DNA from: Antennarius striatus
Lineage: Eukaryota; Chordata; Actinopteri; Lophiiformes; Antennariidae
Direction of reading: 5' to 3'
Assembly (NCBI RefSeq): GCF_040054535.1
Contig: NC_090792.1
Span: forward strand, 7,238,001-7,302,000
DNA length: 64,000 bases
Under the pieces are notes generated by a model, which was given only the letters and a program-made list of their open reading frames with translations, made no database searches and had not been told where the DNA came from. The first letter of the stretch is position 1; each line of letters starts with the position of its first letter. The position numbers and the translations under genes were made by a program. Positions 5,388 through 55,978 of this stretch are shown piece by piece.

Positions 5388-5454
5388 GTCTGAAGAACAA
5401 CCACACATAAGACCAGAGTCCCAGAGAAGATTTATTTGATTGCCAGCCAAGGAC

Positions 5455-6318
5455 ATGGACTGGAAGACATTTCAAGCCCTCCTCAGTGGGGTGAACAAGT
5501 ACTCCACAGCGTTCGGGCGAGTTTGGCTGTCTGTGGTCTTTGTGTTTCGGGTGATGGTGTACGTGGTGGCAGCAGAGCGAGTGTGGGGCGATGAGCAGAA
5601 GGACTTCGACTGCAACACCAAGCAGCCGGGCTGCGCCAACGTCTGCTACGACCACTTCTTCCCCATCTCCCACATCCGCCTGTGGGCTCTGCAGCTCATT
5701 TTCGTCACCTGCCCGTCCTTTATGGTGGTCATGCATGTGTCGTACCGTGATGACCGAGAGCGCAAGTTCCGGGCCAAACACGGTGACAATAGCAAGCTTT
5801 ACAACAACACGGGGAAGAAACACGGCGGATTGTGGTGGACCTACTTGATCAGTCTCTTCGTCAAGACGGGCATCGAGATCGCCTTCCTCTACATCCTTCA
5901 CCGAGTCTATGACAGCTTCTACCTTCCGAGGCTGGTCAAGTGTGAGGTGGCGCCCTGCCCCAACCAGGTTGACTGCTACATCGGCCACCCCACTGAGAAG
6001 AAGGTCTTCACCTACTTCATGGTGGGAGCTTCGGCACTGTGTGTCATCCTCAATATCTGCGAGATTATCTATCTGATCGCCAAGCGCATTGTGCGAATTG
6101 CAAACAAGATGAAGAGGCGTCAACGCAACTTGCCAGTGCGTGAAGAAAGCTATGGTGACGACCTGTTTAACAACTATGACGTATCTCCCATGAGGCAGCC
6201 GGTGAAGGATATGCCTCCATCCTTCAAGACTGCATCCAAAACACCATATAAACCACCTGGAATCAAACTCGAAGAGAAGATTCGGGCCTCAGCTCCAAAT
6301 CTTACCTTAACTTCATGA
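5455..6318 (+). CDS. gjb3: Gap junction beta connexin, GJB3 (Cx31)-like, 287 aa
   Basis: Connexin forming gap-junction hemichannels in the plasma membrane. I chose the ATG at 5455 because the protein then begins [18 protein letters not shown], the typical connexin start; the frame is open upstream but has no earlier ATG. Loop one shows CX6CX3C ([12 protein letters not shown]) with [11 protein letters not shown]. Loop two shows CX4CX5C ([12 protein letters not shown]) with [17 protein letters not shown]. The cytoplasmic loop carries [11 protein letters not shown]. The C-terminus ends [10 protein letters not shown], very like the end of mammalian GJB3 (ASAPNL), which is the best evidence for the name. 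The tail has a basic stretch (KMKRRQR) after the fourth membrane segment. The coding exon is uninterrupted. Its product and that of the upstream connexin probably arose by tandem duplication. Confidence 0.94.
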
Positions 6319-14289: not shown

Positions 14290-16076
14290 CTACAGCTCCT
14301 CGTCGCTGTCATCCACTTGTTGGATAATGAGGTCGGCCCCCGAGTCTTCAGCCAAGTCATCTTCATCAGTAATCATCCAGCCCCGCTTGGTTTCCCCCTC
14401 CTCCTCCCCGTCTACTCCCAGCAGTAGGGCTGGCTCTTCATTGGTCCCCTCTAGACTGTCTAAGGTCATGTCATCACAACCCACTTCCTGTATGCATGTG
14501 TTACATATGCGATAGCGTCGTGTGCCCTCACACACGACATGCCCTGTGTCCTCCGTCACCTGACACTTACACTTCCTGCAAACCAACTTCCTGGCTTGGT
14601 GGATCTGTGGCAGAACAGGAAACAAACAAAAAATGCACACAGCATAAATAACAATCTAAACATGTTTGGTATTAGTAGCAAATGTCAACACATGAGAAAA
14701 TTCAACTTTTACTTTGTTTTGCTGCAAAAGTTGTTAAATCAATAAAGAATAAGAGAAAGTGATATCTGTGTATCTTTCACTTCCTGGTTGTAAGCAAACA
14801 TACCGTTTCAAAATGGCTACGAAGATGCTCCAGACGGGTGAAGCGTTTATTGCAGGCTTGGCAGGGGTACGGCCTCTCGCCTGTGTGACATCTCAAGTGA
14901 CGCTTCAGGTCTGCCTTCCTCTTCACCGTGTGTGTGCAGAATGGACATTTGAAACGCATGACAGGATTTGAGTCTGCAAAGAAGAACGTAAAACTGTTCA
15001 GAGCTTCTGTTTTCTGATGATTCCCCACATATCCCTGTTTCTGGTCAACTATGAAGGTGAAGTTCAAGCCAGTCTGAATATATTATTGCTTTGTTTAGTT
15101 CTTTAAAAAGGTAAAAAAAAACCATTTCCTTTAAGTTTTTTCCCATATAGCCCAACTAACCTTTATTAAAGTGTTCAATAACGCCCACTATGGACGGAAG
15201 TGTTGCATACAGCTCCTCTGCCTTCTCAGCCTTTTGTGTTCTTGCCTCTTCAATGTCTAAGTCTTCATGGTTGTTTGACCGGACGCTGTTTGGAGCTTTC
15301 CTTTTGGTTCCCCCTTTACCTCGCCGGCGTTCTGTTCCAGGCAAGGTGTACAGAGGGTCCTGAGGGTCCTGCAGGTCCTCCGCCTCTGTGTGGAGTTCAT
15401 TGGCAGGACTGCGTGGGCTCGTTTTGATGGCTGTGACAATTGCATCCTGGTCCAAGTCCTTCCCCATGAAGCTGGACTGGGATCTGGAGTTGTCTCTGGT
15501 CCAGAGCGCTGGCGGCGGACTATCAGAGCAGGGGCCTGGCTGGTGCTGTTCTGAGCTGTCTTCTACACCACTGGCGAAGCTACAGGTTTCAGACAAGTTT
15601 AAGCAGCGCTCAGCATCTTCCTCTTTCACACTAATGTCCAAGGATGATTTGATGAAGTTTTTGCAGTAGTTGATGACATTATTCATCTGCAGGTAACTGG
15701 CGGCAGACATCACCTCGATTACATTGTGACTGGAGAGGTCCAGCTGGCCGGAGTAGATGAAATCCAGGATGACAGTGAAGGTCTCTGGAGTGAAGACATC
15801 AAAGGTGGCATTGACTGAGTCGGACAGCCTGTCGGGCCCCTGGGACAGCAGCATACGAAAGTAGCCGCTGCTGGCGAACAAGACGTTGCGGTGGGCCCTG
15901 AAGAGCTGGCCCTCCACCAGCAGGCTGCAGTCACAGAAGAGCTCCTGGTGGCGCTGCTGGTTGAGCTGCTTCAGCAGGTTGCTCTGGTGAGCCACTGTGA
16001 TGTCAGCAGTGTTGAACCACCTCTGAGGCTGCCTGCAGAAAATAACATGACAGAATGCTGACTGTGAAGGCGCCAT
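14290..16076 (-). CDS. zbtb8a: BTB/POZ zinc-finger protein ZBTB8A, 3 coding exons, 466 aa
   Basis: Probable nuclear transcription regulator. Coding exons: 16076-15161, 14973-14804, 14604-14290; phases close exactly. The ATG at 16076 has a good context (AAACCATGG) and sits 13 bases inside an exon opened by a strong acceptor (TTTTCCTGCAG). The BTB domain spans about residues 20-140 and includes [22 protein letters not shown] and [14 protein letters not shown]. Two C2H2 fingers follow: about 313-335 (FKCPFC ... HLRCH) and 341-364 (YPCQAC ... HFETIH). The second is split by the last intron, and correct splicing restores its final histidine. The C-terminal part has a conserved CRKC/CNTC cysteine set, an EGTRRYR block and ends with an acidic [16 protein letters not shown], close to mammalian ZBTB8A. 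The paralogue ZBTB8B is the alternative but its BTB sequence matches less well. Confidence 0.92.
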
Positions 16077-16199
16077 GGTTTAAGTCACTCTGCAGGAAAA
16101 CTAGATAAAATCACAGTGGCCTTGAGACATGATTGAAAAGATTATTATCTTGCTGAATTAACAGCATGTATGAGTCTGACGACTGACCGCAGGATGGTC

Positions 16200-24125: not shown

Positions 24126-24566
24126 TATTATTAAAATGATGTCATACCAGAGGAAAAATGTATCAATAATATGAAATAAATAAGGAAAATAATGAGTTCG
24201 CCCTCATTTTTGACTTATGCACCTGATAAGTTAAAATAAACACAGTATTTTCCACAAATGTAGCCACAAGAGGACACAAACCAGTGTCTTATTGTGCCGG
24301 TCCCAAGCCCGGATAAATACAGAGGGTTGCGACAAGAAGGGCATCCGGCGTAAAACTTTTGCCAATCAAAGATACGAATCAAACCTATGACTTCCATACC
24401 TGATCGGTTGAGGTCCGGTTTAACAACGACCGCCATCGGCGCTGTTGACCTACAGGCCGCCGGTGGAAATTGGACGACTGTTGGTTGAAGAAGGAGAGGA
24501 GGAAAGTGTGTTCGTAGGAAGAGAGAGAACAGGAACACCAACAGTACAGGACTGAGAGTAGGGACG

Positions 24567-25685
24567 TTGAATGTTGGAATTATGACAGGAAAAGGTAGGG
24601 AGTTAGTTGACATGATGCAGAGGAGGAAGGTAGACATACTGTGTGTCCAGGAGACCAGGTGGAAAGGTAGCAAGGCTGGAAGTTTAGGAGCAGGGTTCAA
24701 GTTGTTCTATCATGGTGTAGATGGGAGGAGAAATGGAGTAGGAGTTATCTTGAAGGAGGAGTTTGTTAGCAATGTCCTGGAGGTAAAAAGAGTGTCGGAT
24801 AGAGTGATGAGTCTGAAGCTAGAAATCAAAGGTGTGATGTTCAATGTTGTTAGTTGGTATGCTCCACAGGTAGGATGTGAGCTGGAGGAGAAGGAGAAAT
24901 TCTGGTTGGACTTTGATGAAGTCACGCAGAGCATACCAAGAAGTGAGAGAGTTGTCATTGGTGCAGACTTCAATGGACATGTTGGTGCAGGAAACAGAGG
25001 TGATGAGGAGGTGATGGGCAGGTTTGGTATCCAGGAGAGGAACACAGAAGGACAGATGGTACTTGACTTTGCAAAAAGAATGGAAATGGCTATAGTAAAT
25101 ACTTTCTTCCAGAAGAAGCAGGACCATAGGGTGACCTATAAGAGTGGTGGTAGGAGCACACAGGTAGACTACATCTTGTGTAGACGGTGTAACCTGAAGG
25201 AGATCAGTGACTGCAAAGTAGTGGTAGGTGAGAGTGTAGCCAAACAGCATAGGATGGTGGTGTGTAGGATGACTCTGGTGGTGAGGAAGATGAAGAGGGC
25301 AAAGGCAGAGCAGAAGACGAAATGGTGGAAGCTAAAAAAGGAAGAGTGTTGCATTACTTTTAGGAAGGAGTTAAGACAGGCTCTGGGAGGCCAGGAGGTG
25401 CCTCCAGATGACTGGACAACTACAGCTAATGTGATCAGGGAGACAGGTAAGAGAGTACTTGGTGTCTCATCTGGAATGAAAGTGGATAAGGAGACTTGGT
25501 GGTGGAATGAGGAGGTACAGGAGTGTATTCAGAGAAAAAGGTTAGCTAAGAGGAAGTGGGACACTGAGAGGACTGAGGAGAGTAGACAGGAGTACAGAAA
25601 GATGCAGGGTAAGGTGAAGGTAGAGGTAGCAAAGGCCAAACAAGAAGCTTATGATGACTTGTATGCTATGTTGGACATTAAGTAG
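24567..25685 (+). pseudogene. LINE endonuclease part of the ORF (372 codons to a premature stop)
   Basis: Apurinic endonuclease-like domain that nicks target DNA in non-LTR retrotransposition. The motifs QET (near residue 29), GADFNGHVG (about 130) and STQVDYIL (about 195) are present, as is a QHR near 225, so the catalytic set looks intact. The ORF ends at a TAG in the same frame as the reverse-transcriptase part 21 bases later. The two are thus one broken protein, not two genes. Confidence 0.85.
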
Positions 25686-27194
25686 GGAGAGACTGATCTA
25701 TACCGGTTGGCAAGACAGAGAGATAGAGATGGGAAAGACTTGCAGCAGGTTAGGGTGATTAAGGATAGGGACGGAAGTCTATTGACAGGTGCCAGTAGTG
25801 TGATGGGAAGATGGAAAGAGTACTTTGAAGAGGTGATGAACGTGGAAAATGAGAGAGAACAAAGACTAGAAGAGGTGACTGTTTTGGACCAGGACGTAGC
25901 AAAGATTAGTCAGGATGAAGTGAGGAGGGCATTGAAGAGGATGAAGAGTGGAAAGGCAGTCGGTCCTGGTGATATACCTGTAGAGGTTTGGAAGTGTCTA
26001 GGAGAGGTGGCAGTAGAGTTTCTGACTGGGTTGTTCAACAGGATCTTAGATAGTGAGAAGATGCCTGAGGAATGGAGGAGAAGTGTGCTGGTGCCCATTT
26101 TTAAGAACAAGGGAGATGTGCAGAGTTGTAGTAACTACAGAGGAATAAAGCTGATGAGCCATACAATGAAGTTATGGGTAAGAGTAGTGGAAGCTAGACT
26201 AAGGGCAGAAGGGAACATTTGTGAGCAGCAGTATGGTTTCATGCCAAAAAAGAGTACTACATATGCAGTATTTGCTTTGAGGATGATAGAGAAGTACAGA
26301 GAAGGCCAGAGGGAGCTGCATTGTGCTTTTGTAGATCTGGTGAAAGCTTATGGCAGGGTGCCCAGAGAGGAACTGTGGTATTGTATGAGGAAGTCTGGAG
26401 TGGCAGAGAAGTATGTTAGAGCAGTGCAGGACATGTATGAGGACTGTAAGACAGTGGTGAGGTGTGCTGTAGGTGTGACAGAGGAGTTCAAGGTGGAGGT
26501 GGGACTGCATCAGGGATCAGCTCTGAGCCCCTTCTTGTTTGCTATGGTGATGGACAGGCTGACAGACGAGGTTAGACAGGAATCTCCATGGACTATGATG
26601 TTTACAGATGACATTGTGATCTGCAGTGAGAGCAGGGAACAGGTGGAGGAGAAGCTAGAAAGGTGGAGGTTTGTCCTGGAAAGGAGAGGAATGAAAGTTA
26701 GCCGCAGTAAGACAGAGTACAGGTGTGTGAATGAGAGGGACCCAAGTGGAAGAGTGAGGTTACAGGGAGAAGAGATCAAGAAGGTGGAGGATTTTAAGTA
26801 CTTAGGGTCAACAGTCCAGAGCAATGGAGAGTGTGGAAAAGAGGTTAAGAAGCGTGTACAGGCAGGATGGAACGGGTGGAGGAAAGTGTCAGGTGTGATG
26901 TGTGATAGAAGAGTTTCAGCTAAAATGATAGGAAAGGTGTACAAAACTGTGGTGAGACCAGCGATGTTGTTTGGTCTAGAGACAGTGTCACTGAGGAAAA
27001 GACAGGAGGCAGAGCTGGAGGTAGCAGAGATGAAGATGCTGAGGTTCTCTCTGGGAGTGACCAGGAAGGATAGGATCAGGAATGAGTACATCAGAGGGAC
27101 AGCACATGTTAGAGGTTTTGGAGACAAAGTCAGAGAGGCCAGACTGAGATGGTTTGGACATGTCCAGAGGAGAGATAGTGAATATATTGGTTGA
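25686..27194 (+). pseudogene. LINE reverse-transcriptase part of the ORF
   Basis: Continues the endonuclease frame after the nonsense codon. It has the fingers, palm and thumb blocks of a reverse transcriptase and a C-terminal maturase-like region. The catalytic Asp pair is present in FTDD at 26601-26612. The TGA at 27192 interrupts the C-terminal domain, and a further frame change follows. No evidence that this copy can move. Confidence 0.85.
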
Positions 27195-44030: not shown

Positions 44031-44152
44031 AAGGATCGATATACTGGGGAGATAAAGTCCCACAAGCTCAGTGTTGCCATATTTTTAACAAACCTGGATA
44101 CTCGAGACTTCATCCACCTCCCTGAAGTGCCTTTCCGCTGTTACTCGCCAAG

Positions 44153-45595
44153 ATGCCCAAAGGATTCCTGGTAAAAAGAAACAAGAAATCTGCACATGTT
44201 TCCTACAGGACACGGCCAGACGAAGATGACCTCCAGGAGCCCCCCACCCCAGCTGCCTTGCCGTTTCAGGCGGACCCTTCCCCTCCAATGTCCGTGGCGT
44301 CCAGTCCGGACCGCACCGCAGCATCACCGGATTTCACAGCGGCTGAGGCGTCGGTGCCAAGATTGGAGAAACCGGCACAGTTCGGCAACCCGGAGGCGGT
44401 GTGCCAAGTCCTCTACAGCCCCACCCGGCCCATCAGCAAGGAGCACGACAGGGAATATTTTGAGCGAAGTTTCAATCTGGGCTCGCCTATTTCTGCCGAG
44501 TCATTCCCGACACCTGCCTCCCTCTCCGGCCTCGATCATCTCATTTACGCCCCAGTCGACCTGAAAATCGGCACCAGCAACAGCAGCCGCAGCGGCATCA
44601 CCAGCAGCCTCCCGGCGCCGAGTAACCGCGTCGTTACCAAAAGACCCGCAACGGACGCCACGGATCGCAAATCTAAAGCCGCCTCCAAGAAACCCAAAGC
44701 CATTAGAAAACTCAACTTTGAAGACGAGGTGACGACTTCCCCAGTCCTGGGTCTCAAAATCAAAGAGGGGCCGGTGGAGATGAAGCCGAGGGCGCAAACC
44801 TCCGGAGGAAGCAAGCCTTTGGGGGAGTTCGTGTGCCAGCTGTGTAAGGAGGCGTACGCGGATCCGTTCTCTCTGGCGCAGCACAAGTGCTCCCGCATCG
44901 TCAGGGTCGAGTACCGGTGCCCCGAATGCGACAAGATGTTCAGCTGCCCCGCCAATCTCGCCTCTCACCGCCGCTGGCACAAACCCCGGGGCACCGGCGT
45001 ATCCACGATGTCTCCGTTACAGGGCATCAAACACGAGATGGCAAAATTACCACCGTTAGGAGTCAAGTCAGGCTCCGACGAAGCCAAAGACGCGAGTGAC
45101 AGAGACACCCCGAGTCCGGGTCTGTCCGAGTCCGGCTCCGAAGACGGTTCCTACGACTGCCAGTACTGCGGGAAGAGGTTTAAGCGACAGGCATACCTAA
45201 GAAAACACATCATGGGACACCAGGCCCTGCAAAGAAAAGTGGATGAGCCCGGGTTTCAAACCAGCGATCGTGCACCAGAGCAGGTTTCGGTCTCTTCTTC
45301 TTCCTCCTCCTCCTCATCCTCGTCATCATCCTCAGAGGAAGCATCAAACCAAAGCCCTCTCAATCTGAGCCCGGTGGACTGTCTGCTGTGCCCGGTGTGT
45401 GGGGAGAGCTTCACCAGCAGGGCCGGTCAGGAGCGACACCTCCGCCTCATGCACTCCTCCCAGATTTACCCGTGCAAGTACTGCCCCGCCACTCTGTACA
45501 GCTCGCCCGGGCTCACCCGGCACATAAACAAGTGCCACCCCTCGGAGAACAGGCAGGTCATCCTGCTCCAGATGCCGGTGCGCCCCGCCTGCTAG
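44153..45595 (+). CDS. insm1: Insulinoma-associated protein 1, intronless, 480 aa
   Basis: Zinc-finger transcriptional repressor that drives differentiation of neuroendocrine cells and neural progenitors. It starts with the SNAG repressor motif MPKGFLVKR, which recruits histone demethylase/deacetylase complexes. Family blocks follow: [68 protein letters not shown]. Five fingers are visible at about residues 226-247 (FVCQLC ... QHKC), 254-276 (YRCPEC ... HRRWH), 334-356 (YDCQYC), 411-435 (LLCPVC) and 439-462 (YPCKYC). The C-terminus [14 protein letters not shown] is nearly identical to human INSM1, which rules out INSM2. A long serine tract near residue 385 is fish-like filler. The gene is a single exon, as in mammals. 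Whether it is the a or b teleost duplicate cannot be told. Confidence 0.96.
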
Positions 45596-50768: not shown

Positions 50769-53700
50769 TCAGTTGGAGGATTTGCTTATAGCGCTGGCGG
50801 ATCGGCGGAGTTTTCCAGAAACTCGGTTCTTCGTGGCACGGGGAATTGTGGGAGACACCTGGTCTACAGAGTCGGCTGCTGGGGTGGTGTTTCCAGGTTC
50901 AGTGCTGCTGCTGAAAGAGCCTGGGGGTGGGGAGAGATGGAGGGACAGTTTGTACCCAGACTGATGCAGGTAGGGCTCAGAAGGCTGCGTGTGATAGCCA
51001 ATCCCAGCATGCGTCGTCATGCACATGGCTGCTCCCATAACAAAAGATTAAGCAGTTCAATGATTTCCACCAAACCATCAAAAAATTTGAGCTCCTCCTA
51101 CCCCTTGATTCATTAAACATTTTGAGACAGTAAATAAAACATTTAAGAGATAACATGCTTCTTTCACATGCTGTAGATAAGGACAACTTGTTGCAAAAGC
51201 AGCTGTCTATCTTCCCTACGTTTTTTTTCTCAAATGCTTACGGGATAAAAAGGAGCGGTAACCTTTATAGCCACAGGCGGAAAAAAAGTATTCTCTTCAC
51301 AGTGTGACAACAGAAAGCCTTGAATGAGAATAAAATTACACATTATGCTCTTGTTGTGAACATGCAGAGCTTTCCTGTTGTCAAATGTCGGCACCTTTCA
51401 AATATAAAATAAAGAAATCAGTGATTATGGGATGGTAAATAGTAATAAGGACACCTCAGCATCAAATGCTGCTGAGGACAATCGAGTGTTGTAGATGTTG
51501 GTGAAACTTCCTCAGCGTGCCCTTGACCAAACCCCTGACTGCAGGCCCCCGCAACACGCCTCTGCCCCATGCCTCGAGTTTAAACAACTTTTCTTCTTTG
51601 TCAAGATGGCATCTGGTTGCCTATTTTTTTCCCCCTCTATCCTTTTATTTCCTGCCATTTTTCGGAGGCATCTCAAGTTGCAGCAGCTAAAAGGAATGGC
51701 AGATGGCTGGAGTAACAGACACTCAGCAGCACAGTGGACACCAGCAGCATCCAGGGTTGCAGCTCGCTGGGAGACGAGGGCCGGGCTGCGGATGAAACAT
51801 GGGAAGGGGGGGGGTGCATTGTGATGGTCCATAGGGGAGGTGAGGGGCTTCCGCACATGAATTCACAAATCTGCATATGAATAGAAAAAAGGGAGGGGCT
51901 TAGCTAAAAAGATGGTCGGGGCTTATGGACAGAACAAATCCGGCATTCCCGTATTCTTCCAGTCATTCCAATAGTAAATAATGGTTGTTTTTTTTTTAAA
52001 CTAAACTCCAGCTGTAAGGACAGACAGACAGGAGCACGGCCTCCACTTGATGACATTAACATTCACTTTGTGAATTTGCTGTAACAAAAAGACGATATAA
52101 TGACTGTGGTTACTTCAGATATTAAATTATGTTTGCAGCTGCGTGGCCTTATGAAAGATTTATTTTCCTACAAATTACAGAATGTAAAAATCTATCTATA
52201 TCCAGAAAAGACTTTTACATCATCATCATCATTATTATATCTCAGCATAGCCACTCCTTACTCAAACAAAACTCTGTTTCGGTGAGCTTGATTTTAGATG
52301 GAAAGAAGAGGGCGAGAGAACGAAAACAAAGGAAGTCTTTAAATGGCCCTGCTATCCCATTGGTCCCTTCTGCAAGCAGTTCAAACAAGGCTTTAGATGA
52401 CAAAGACGTCTTCCAGTGCGGCAGGTGTTAGTCTCAGAGTCTGCCCCAGGCAAACAGGCACACTCCAACAGGAGGAAATTGGGGGGGGGGGGAGTTGAGG
52501 GAAAAAAGGACAGAAAGAAAAGGGAAAATTGTTTGCTGATGGTAGAGATAAAGGCGCTCCGCATGCAGAAGCGACGGCCAGAAGTGTAGCCGTATTGTTC
52601 ATGCTGTTACTTAGTCAGGTGCTAATTGTCCCCACCGTGCATCACTTTCAATTACCAGCTTGGCCCAAACAGTAAGACACACCCCAAATAAACAGCCTGT
52701 CTTCTCTGTCCCCTTCTCTTTGTCAGAGCACTAAGTAAATAGAGCGTGGTTAGTACTGAATAAAGAAAAAAAAAAAGAGGTGGGGGGGGTGGCAGCCAAG
52801 AAGAGTGAACGAGCGAACGGTAGGTAGTCCGCTGGACGGAGACAGGCTTCTGGGCTGACTCGGGGCTTACCTTCGCCATCTACAGTATTTGGACCTTAAA
52901 GATAATTTTTAATCTAAAAGGGAAAAACAAAGTAGAGCATTGTGTGAGAGAGAGGTTGACACACAGACACACACCAGACCACACTACTGTAGAAAACACA
53001 GCTAATGAAAAGTTAGTGACGTAGAGGGACATTCAGACAGCATGTGAGGCGTCACACTGCTGAGGATTTAGAAGACAGATGAGGTTCATCAACGAGTCAT
53101 TCAGAAGAAATCTGTAGTCTGATGGTACCTAATAAACCTGTACAGCTCACAAATAACATCATTTTGAAATAGAAATCATGAATTGCGGTTTATAAGGCGA
53201 CATCAGACAGACAGACTATATACCACCTCTGTTACAGTCAGGGTTTAGGGTGAGGAAGGAGAAGATGTCGGGAGGCATCTCTGTCACAAGAGCTCCAAAG
53301 TCGTTTTCATTCAGCAGAGAGAAGTCTCTGCTCCTTATTAGAACAAGGGTTAGAGGACAAACGCAAAATGATAACACTGAACAGAGCAGGTGTCACAAAG
53401 CAAGGGCAGAACACGATGGCAAGTGGATCACAGATGGAGTAGCTCGTGCAGCATGGCTGGGCTGAAATTGCAGGATGAGAAGGATGAGGGGTTGCATTCA
53501 CGATCATGGAGGGCGGGGCTGTGGAGGACGCCGACGAACCAGACGGGTTAAAAGACTGGTGGTGATGGACAGGAGAAGGTCGAGGGTTAACACTGAAACA
53601 TTGTAGCAGTGCTTCATTTAACAGGACGCCCTCTTCAGCTCAACAACTGATTTGGTTTTACAGCAGGGCCGAGTCAAACCCAACCCTCAGTGATTCGATG

Positions 53701-54603: not shown

Positions 54604-54700
<97 letters not shown>

Positions 54701-55978
54701 TGAGTTTCTGCCACACTGAGGTCGACACACCATCCTCAGACTTCTGGACTGCTCAGGCCTCTCTTGTTGGCCACAGACCATCCTATGGAACACGATTCTC
54801 CTACCAGGCTAACCTTTATGCTTTTACTCTGACCTGCCACTCACCACAGAGGAACTGTGGTTAAAATCTTCTGCAACATGAAATACATTTCCCTCATCTC
54901 TTCTTGCCAGCTCTTCCTGCCTCTGCATCTATGATTCTGTGTCCTTCCACCTTGCCCTGCAGCTGAGTTGGTGCTGGGGATCAGAGTAAAGGTCAGTCTG
55001 GGGAGATTTTTATCACTCTTGCCTGCCATCACTCTGAATGTTACACCTGCCTACCGAGAATATGAACCACACTGTCCACAAAATTCAGAAGTTTCATTTT
55101 CACATGCCGACATACAAGGTAAAAATATTACACTTTAAAGCCATCCTTAAAACTAATAAGCACGGACAGATTTGAAAATGACTAGATGGTTTGGTGTTCT
55201 GAACACTTTCCTTGTCAAAACAGTCTGAATGTCTGTTGGGATTCAACAGAGTGGAAAAGTGTAATCCTGTATTGATTTCAGTGCTGTTACCAATCGATCT
55301 GAGCTGGTACAAGTAGGAAGAACAAGATAAGACACATTTTCCATTCCATTCATCATGGACTGATAAGACTGCTGTGCTGACACCCATGAGCTGCTGACTG
55401 TCAGTCGGATCTGTGATGTGTTTGTGAAACAATGGAACTGCTCATTTAACAAGGCAGCTTACAGTCAAGGGACACTAATTGCATGGAAAGATGCAGTTTT
55501 AAATAAGAAGAGGTGAACAAACTATTGTGAGTGAGAATTGAGGATGAGGAGAAAGCAGAGTCTTTGAAGTCAGTTGGATGGCGTGACGAGGCCGGGCCGT
55601 TGTTTGATATTCATCAGTGAGTGTAGGCGTGGAAGAAAAGTGGAGAGAATGAGGGGGTGGCGAATATGATAGGGTGAACAGGTGTGGAGGAAGAGGAGGA
55701 GGAAAACAGGCCAACAGAAAAGGTGGAAAGGAGATAAGGAAGAGAGAAAGGTGAGAGGAGGATGGTCATATGAGGAGGTAACAGTGGGATTATGGGATGA
55801 ATTTGGGCTTAAAAGAGACATGAAAAACATGAATTTGAACAATGTGGTTCATTCCTCACCTGTTCCACCCACTGGATAACCAGAAGGGGAGAAGACCTGT
55901 GATGCAAAGTCCTCAAAGGTCATGACTTCTCTGTGGTTCTGAACAATGGCCTCCAGGTAGAGCGCTCGCTCCTCATAG
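50769..55978 (-). CDS. ralgapa1/2: 3' coding exons of Ral GTPase-activating protein alpha subunit (partial)
   Basis: RalGAP alpha pairs with RalGAP beta to switch off RalA/RalB in the cytoplasm. Only the C-terminus is here. Exon 55978-55860 reads [33 protein letters not shown] and GGT, the conserved tail right after the Rap/Ran-GAP domain. It ends in GTGAGG. A second exon (52913 or 52879 to 52871) and a last exon (50920-50769) follow. With the inner acceptor the frame joins exactly: [19 protein letters not shown], ending [17 protein letters not shown]. With the outer, stronger acceptor the protein ends GTD at once. The GAP domain exons are not in the window and must lie beyond 64 kb. Human INSM1 neighbours RALGAPA2, but this tail resembles RALGAPA1 more, from memory, so the paralogue is open. 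Confidence 0.82.
52871..52913 (-). other. ralgapa1/2: ralgapa exon with two alternative 3' splice sites
   Basis: Both forms end at 52871 before a GTAAGC donor. The outer acceptor (AG at 52915-52914) has an excellent pyrimidine tract (TTTGTTTTTCCCTTTTAG). It gives a 43-base exon whose second codon is TAA, so the protein ends ...GTD. The inner acceptor (AG at 52881-52880) has a poor tract. It gives a 9-base microexon (ATGGCGAAG) that keeps the frame open into the last exon and adds about 53 residues. Mammalian RALGAPA1 also has a short form ending in GTD and a longer one. Confidence 0.55.
52914..55859 (-). other. ralgapa1/2: ralgapa penultimate intron
   Basis: Contains a CA microsatellite at 54605-54697 and a GA-rich stretch near 55670-55780. 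No additional coding exon was identified. Confidence 0.4.
54605..54697. repeat. CA dinucleotide microsatellite, about 93 bp
   Basis: About 46 CA units in a ralgapa intron. Confidence 0.98.

Follow-up and report, generated by a model that had tools for sequence, protein, structure and literature searches.

The RalGAP alpha gene on the minus strand of the window (the whole 64,000-nt stretch of Antennarius striatus DNA analyzed here) probably carries a switch between two C-termini that is built on a cassette exon. The 43-nt segment 52913-52871 would be its penultimate exon: inclusion would end the protein at ...GTD and turn the last exon into 3' UTR, and skipping would join the phase-1 donor at 55860 to 50920 and give a protein 49 residues longer, with a basic tail. 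We hold this account as a whole, including the use of both forms in the species, to be well on the probable side, and the switch most likely belongs to a type already described, found here in the sister gene of RALGAPA1. Three segments carry it:

55860 to 55978, minus strand: C-terminal exon, 119 nt; encodes 39 residues and supplies the first base of the codon after them; here the GAP-domain region of RalGAP ends
52871 to 52913, minus strand: penultimate exon, 43 nt, the proposed cassette; inclusion gives GAT TAA, that is, D and a stop
50769 to 50920, minus strand: coding part of the last exon; a 50-residue C-terminal tail (junction included) and then TGA; non-coding if the 43-nt exon is included

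Gene identity and the frames of the last exons

Judged by identity counts, the gene is of the RalGAP alpha-2 (RALGAPA2) type: against human alpha-2, 45 of 51 residues are identical in the GAP exon and 30 of 32 in the C-terminal exon, the corresponding figures for the ralgapa1-like paralogue of the same genome being 41/51 and 21/32. An earlier, sequence-only reading of this DNA had already recognized a RalGAP alpha gene, which holds, but had left unnamed which of the paralogues it was. The exon 55978-55860 is 82.5% identical to the human RALGAPA2 letters by tblastn and also matches PDB 9qwp; the human chain in that entry aligns up to its final residue, 1899, and ends in GTD like the short form here. 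With the human RALGAPA2 letters, tblastn also placed GAP-domain exons at 82.7-82.4 kb (coordinates extended past the window, beyond which the gene runs upstream), and at 85.3-84.4 kb in the same extended coordinates a large exon matches query residues 26-309 of the 9qwp chain (E 8.8e-91). The exon preceding 55978, near 74.6 kb in the extended coordinates, has a donor that looks non-optimal (TT/GTATCC; here and below, a slash marks an exon boundary). Elsewhere in the window, the single-exon ORF 44126-45592 (+) encodes C2H2 zinc fingers by Pfam and looks like INSM1; INSM1 and RALGAPA2 are neighbors in human, and an INSM1-like ORF at this place would fit such synteny.

The C-terminal exon ends GGA ACA G/GTGAGG, its donor at 55860 leaving one base (G), i.e., phase 1. 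The 43-nt exon is entered through the outer acceptor CCCTTTTAG/ATTAAAA, whose first exon base is 52913, and is left through the donor AAG/GTAAGC directly after 52871. When 55860 is joined to 52913, the first whole codon of the 43-nt exon is a stop and the protein ends ...GTD, so that the joined frames confirm the immediate stop and GTD ending that had been read from the letters. This stop sits 38 nt ahead of the exon's donor, the distance given before. As a usual rule, a stop within 50-55 nt of the last junction escapes nonsense-mediated decay; decay of the GTD form is therefore not expected, as had also been proposed. The last exon begins behind the acceptor CACCCCCAG/GCTCTT with first base 50920, and its frame stays open until the TGA ending at 50769. 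A direct skip from 55860 to 50920 is in frame and reaches the same serine-rich basic tail without any use of the inner AG that lies within the 43-nt segment. Predicted frames, splice signals and the layout of the paralogue (below) thus all support the two alternative C-termini that were first suggested. The intron preceding the 43-nt exon contains a long GT repeat at about 54604-54697.

The tail and its counterpart in the paralogue

Searched with the GAP exon, the whole genome yielded, besides this gene, a second RalGAP alpha on its contig (76% identity, E 4.4e-20) and a weak third match on another contig (C2; 43%, E 0.195). The second gene is located at C17:1.94-1.98 Mb, and 40 kb around it were examined; we call it ralgapa1-like by exclusion, human alpha-2 being the sole human reference compared. 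There, tblastn matched the C-terminal exon and, on that strand but further downstream, also the tail (E 1e-4, 48% identity). The paralogue's C-terminal exon ends ...LPSDA G/GTGAGG, and its last exon starts CAG/GC TCC TGC and encodes GSCLEILRGESPALGEAGSDSASPMSPRTSKSRMSMKLRRSSGSANKT, followed by a stop; both boundaries have the same phase as in ralgapa2. The top exon pair of the intervening intron (score 21.1; next, 16.9) delimits a 32-nt exon, TTTAG/ATCGTTTTGTCTCACTTGCCTATAACTAAAAG/GTAAGCC, which starts ATCG and ends AAAAG and is predicted to encode DRFVSLAYN with a stop 3 nt before the donor; the predicted short ending of the paralogue is SDADRFVSLAYN. No AG occurs inside this 32-nt exon before its end; a route through an inner acceptor is therefore impossible in the paralogue, and skipping is possible. 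The two small exons differ in length (43 vs. 32 nt), and blastn of both introns, cassette exons included (word size 7, E up to 1), returned nothing; their common origin would be indicated by position, phase, effect and the conserved tail.

The two tails align ungapped over 29 residues with a score of 71, which none of 20,000 shuffles equaled (mean of the shuffled scores 24.6, maximum 58). Identities by codon position 1, 2 and 3 number 19, 20 and 8 over these 29 codons and 28, 23 and 13 over all 47 compared codons; read from this alignment, the pattern is one of protein constraint and the tails are homologous. It is because of the homologous tail in the paralogue that we hold the tail to be coding. 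The openness of the frame was dropped as a proof of coding, as at least 49 codons were also open in 11% of cases when the last-exon stretch was dinucleotide-shuffled 5000 times. In its makeup the tail is an acidic, serine-rich linker followed by a basic, serine-rich block with the motif KLRRS, which is common to both paralogues; a Pfam search found no domain in the tail. The basic, serine-rich tail that the sequence-only reading saw in frame in the last exon is thus there, but its size needs correction: the gain over the GTD form is not "about 53" residues but 52 through a 9-nt exon and 49 by skipping.

Splice signals and competing readings

Splice sites were scored with a consensus matrix over the 310 AGs and 351 GTs of the region 56100-50700. 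The outer acceptor of the 43-nt exon (52913) ranked first among the AGs, the AG before 52986 fourth and the last-exon acceptor (50920) fifth, and the donors at 55860 and 52871 ranked first and second among the GTs. We also scored acceptor-donor pairs at 9-150 nt spacing in the stretch 55859-50921 and compared the top 12; the 43-nt exon was the best pair (score 23.2).

The strength of these very signals also speaks for a gene that makes the short form only, in which the tail frame would be a relic of an ancestral switch still kept in ralgapa1. An outer acceptor and a donor among the strongest of the region would favor constant inclusion, and the human RALGAPA2 chain in the PDB is the GTD form; but the tail frame runs through 49 codons uninterrupted and unshifted, its first and second codon positions are constrained in the comparison with the paralogue, and the last-exon acceptor is strong with its phase kept. 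On this balance we regard a short-form-only gene as unlikely.

The cassette exon has also to be weighed against two shorter exons that would share its donor:

52871 to 52879, minus strand: 9-nt microexon through the inner AG, proposed by the sequence-only reading; in frame, no stop; considered unlikely
52871 to 52894, minus strand: 24-nt exon through the middle AG (first base 52894); in frame, with GPNTVDGE preceding the tail; considered unlikely

In the first of these, the inner AG (ATACTGTAG/ATGGCGAAG, first exon base 52879) would compete with the outer acceptor, and the microexon would lead into the tail, giving ...GTDGEGSFSSS...SKSSN and a stop. Its signals and frame do exist: the frame is kept, no stop intervenes, and the shared donor is strong (rank 2/351). 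Yet the inner AG comes 94th among the 310 AGs and lacks a polypyrimidine tract, two further AGs lie just upstream of it, the in-frame middle AG ranks higher (60), and the 9-nt pair (52879/52871) is absent from the top 12 exon pairs of 55859-50921. The matrix score alone cannot rule the inner AG out, since the genuine acceptor of an exon that is certain by homology, 55978, ranks just 160/310 with the same matrix, which thus scores at least one true site of the gene too low. Weighing further against the microexon, the paralogue's exon has no internal AG although the tail is conserved there, and skipping alone accounts for the frame. As the mechanism of the long form, then, the microexon is probably wrong, and we give it very little credence. 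The argument that had carried it, that a phase match across three exons is unlikely to arise by chance, fails: three separate joins reach the tail in frame, the direct skip and the 24-nt exon no less than the microexon, so that the frame is no argument for the 9-nt exon. Given an in-frame skip, any stop-free inner exon with a length that is a multiple of three will fit (about one in three, by our own estimate), and more generally, that a putative microexon fits the frame does not speak for it when skipping of the whole exon keeps the same frame.

In the least credible reading the penultimate exon begins at the AG before 52986, with a length of 116 nt (52986-52871, minus strand) and another short C-terminus (V-V-W-S-G...); its acceptor ranks 4/310 and it forms the second-best pair (20.4) with the same donor, but the acceptor at 52913 scores higher and yields GTD, the ending of human RALGAPA2. 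Skipping of the whole 43-nt exon is accordingly preferred, since the skip is in frame, the inner AG is weak, the paralogue has no inner AG, and a comparable event has been published for RALGAPA1.

Precedents, candidate regulation and meaning

In chicken RALGAPA1 (GARNL1), exon 40 of 41 (31 bp) is skipped, extending the ORF from 2035 to 2086 aa (PMC3322132), and a human RALGAPA1 variant without exon 40 is said to correspond to the chicken event (PMC3322132, after Schwarzbraun 2004). Exon 41 of RALGAPA1 was followed by RT-PCR in human cornea (PMC4358235) and shows Srsf3-dependent skipping in mouse Ralgapa1 (PMC12190909), the exon numbering in both being possibly different from that of the penultimate exon. 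For cattle RALGAPA2 a mutually exclusive exon event is on record, its exons unnamed there (PMC10940349), so that RALGAPA2 was already known to be alternatively spliced. A non-exhaustive literature search naming RALGAPA2 turned up, in the excerpts it returned, no account of a penultimate-exon switch. The event proposed here appears ordinary in kind; its interest appears to lie in the presence of the same switch in both RalGAP alpha genes, previously described, in the literature searched, only for RALGAPA1.

Like the RALGAPA1 (GARNL1/TULIP1) cassette, the proposed one is a small penultimate exon, of 43 nt in ralgapa2 and 32 nt in the paralogue against 31 bp in chicken, and its skipping would add some 50 residues to the protein (49 in ralgapa2; 51 for the chicken gene). 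It differs in that ralgapa2 is the sister gene, that the exon sequence and the short ending are not the same, and that the switch here is predicted from sequence. RALGAPA2 in PDB 9qwp shares the GAP-domain and C-terminal exon sequence and the same last residues, GTD, but the solved chain has no tail and the predicted long form is missing from it. Neural and muscle microexons are 3-27 nt long and are typically preceded by a pyrimidine-rich stretch with CTCTCT and TGC. The exon here resembles them in being short, in lying toward the end of a signaling gene and in having such a CTCTCT- and TGC-containing stretch upstream of the outer acceptor; unlike them, the proposed exon is 43 nt long, contains a stop and is no 9-nt in-frame insert.

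Inclusion of the human RALGAPA1 penultimate exon drops on depletion of QKI (dPSI -0.75) and of RBFOX2 (-0.28) (PMC8052449). A motif scan downstream of the 43-nt exon gave three putative sites:

52749 to 52754, minus strand: QKI-type ACTAAC, putative regulator site, 117 nt downstream of the 43-nt exon
52562 to 52567, minus strand: RBFOX-type TGCATG, putative regulator site, 304 nt downstream of the 43-nt exon
52427 to 52432, minus strand: second ACTAAY, 439 nt downstream of the 43-nt exon

Within 500 nt downstream, a window fixed after the ralgapa2 hits were seen, the two ACTAAY sites of ralgapa2 have a shuffle P of 0.017 and its TGCATG one of 0.068; in the paralogue, ACTAAY lies 391 nt and TGCATG 139 nt downstream of the 32-nt exon (P 0.264 and 0.098). 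Both motifs occurred within 500 nt in both paralogues in none of 2000 paired shuffles. Over the whole second intron of ralgapa2, ACTAAY is not enriched (P 0.188), and inspection by eye beside the ACTAAY sites found no bipartite QKI half-site. These short motifs are mostly unremarkable singly, and as sequence matches they are compatible with QKI/RBFOX control but are not proof of it; QKI and RBFOX would then promote inclusion, as in human RALGAPA1.

The tail itself would be a regulatory, phosphorylatable segment beside the GAP domain. An arginine at position -3 is an arrangement of the basophilic-kinase type. In the RRSAS of the ralgapa2 tail the second serine has an arginine at -3, and the RRSS of the paralogue tail has arginines at -3 and -2; the suggestion of a kinase site in RRSAS is made reasonable by the KLRRS that both predicted tails contain. 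Phosphorylation by AKT and the binding of 14-3-3 inhibit RalGAP, whose complexes hold Ral GTPases in check and are tumor suppressors (PMC12311180); a role of the tail in control of the AKT/14-3-3 type would be a guess. If both catalytic subunits share the tail, tissue splicing factors, QKI and RBFOX for example, could set a RalGAP property, be it phosphorylation, 14-3-3 binding or location, in the two complexes simultaneously, and constructs that end in GTD only, as the solved chain does, would overlook the tail. That a stop-bearing exon under QKI/RBFOX control, toggling a basic, phosphorylatable tail, predates the duplication of RALGAPA1 and RALGAPA2 and survives in both, which would give the two RalGAP complexes a common C-terminal switch controlled by splicing, is a proposal we find evenly balanced.

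Other features of the window lie outside this gene. Tandem connexin genes occupy 301-1101 and 5440-6315 (+; Pfam PF00029). A BTB/POZ-domain ORF (Pfam) lies at 15159-16079 (-), and an acidic ORF at 14293-14655 (-), for which Pfam gave no match, is possibly part of one gene with it (14293-16079). A LINE-like element at 24489-27191 (+) carries endonuclease and reverse-transcriptase ORFs (Pfam) in adjacent frames, and the GC skew is strong there, 0.354 over 24-28 kb.
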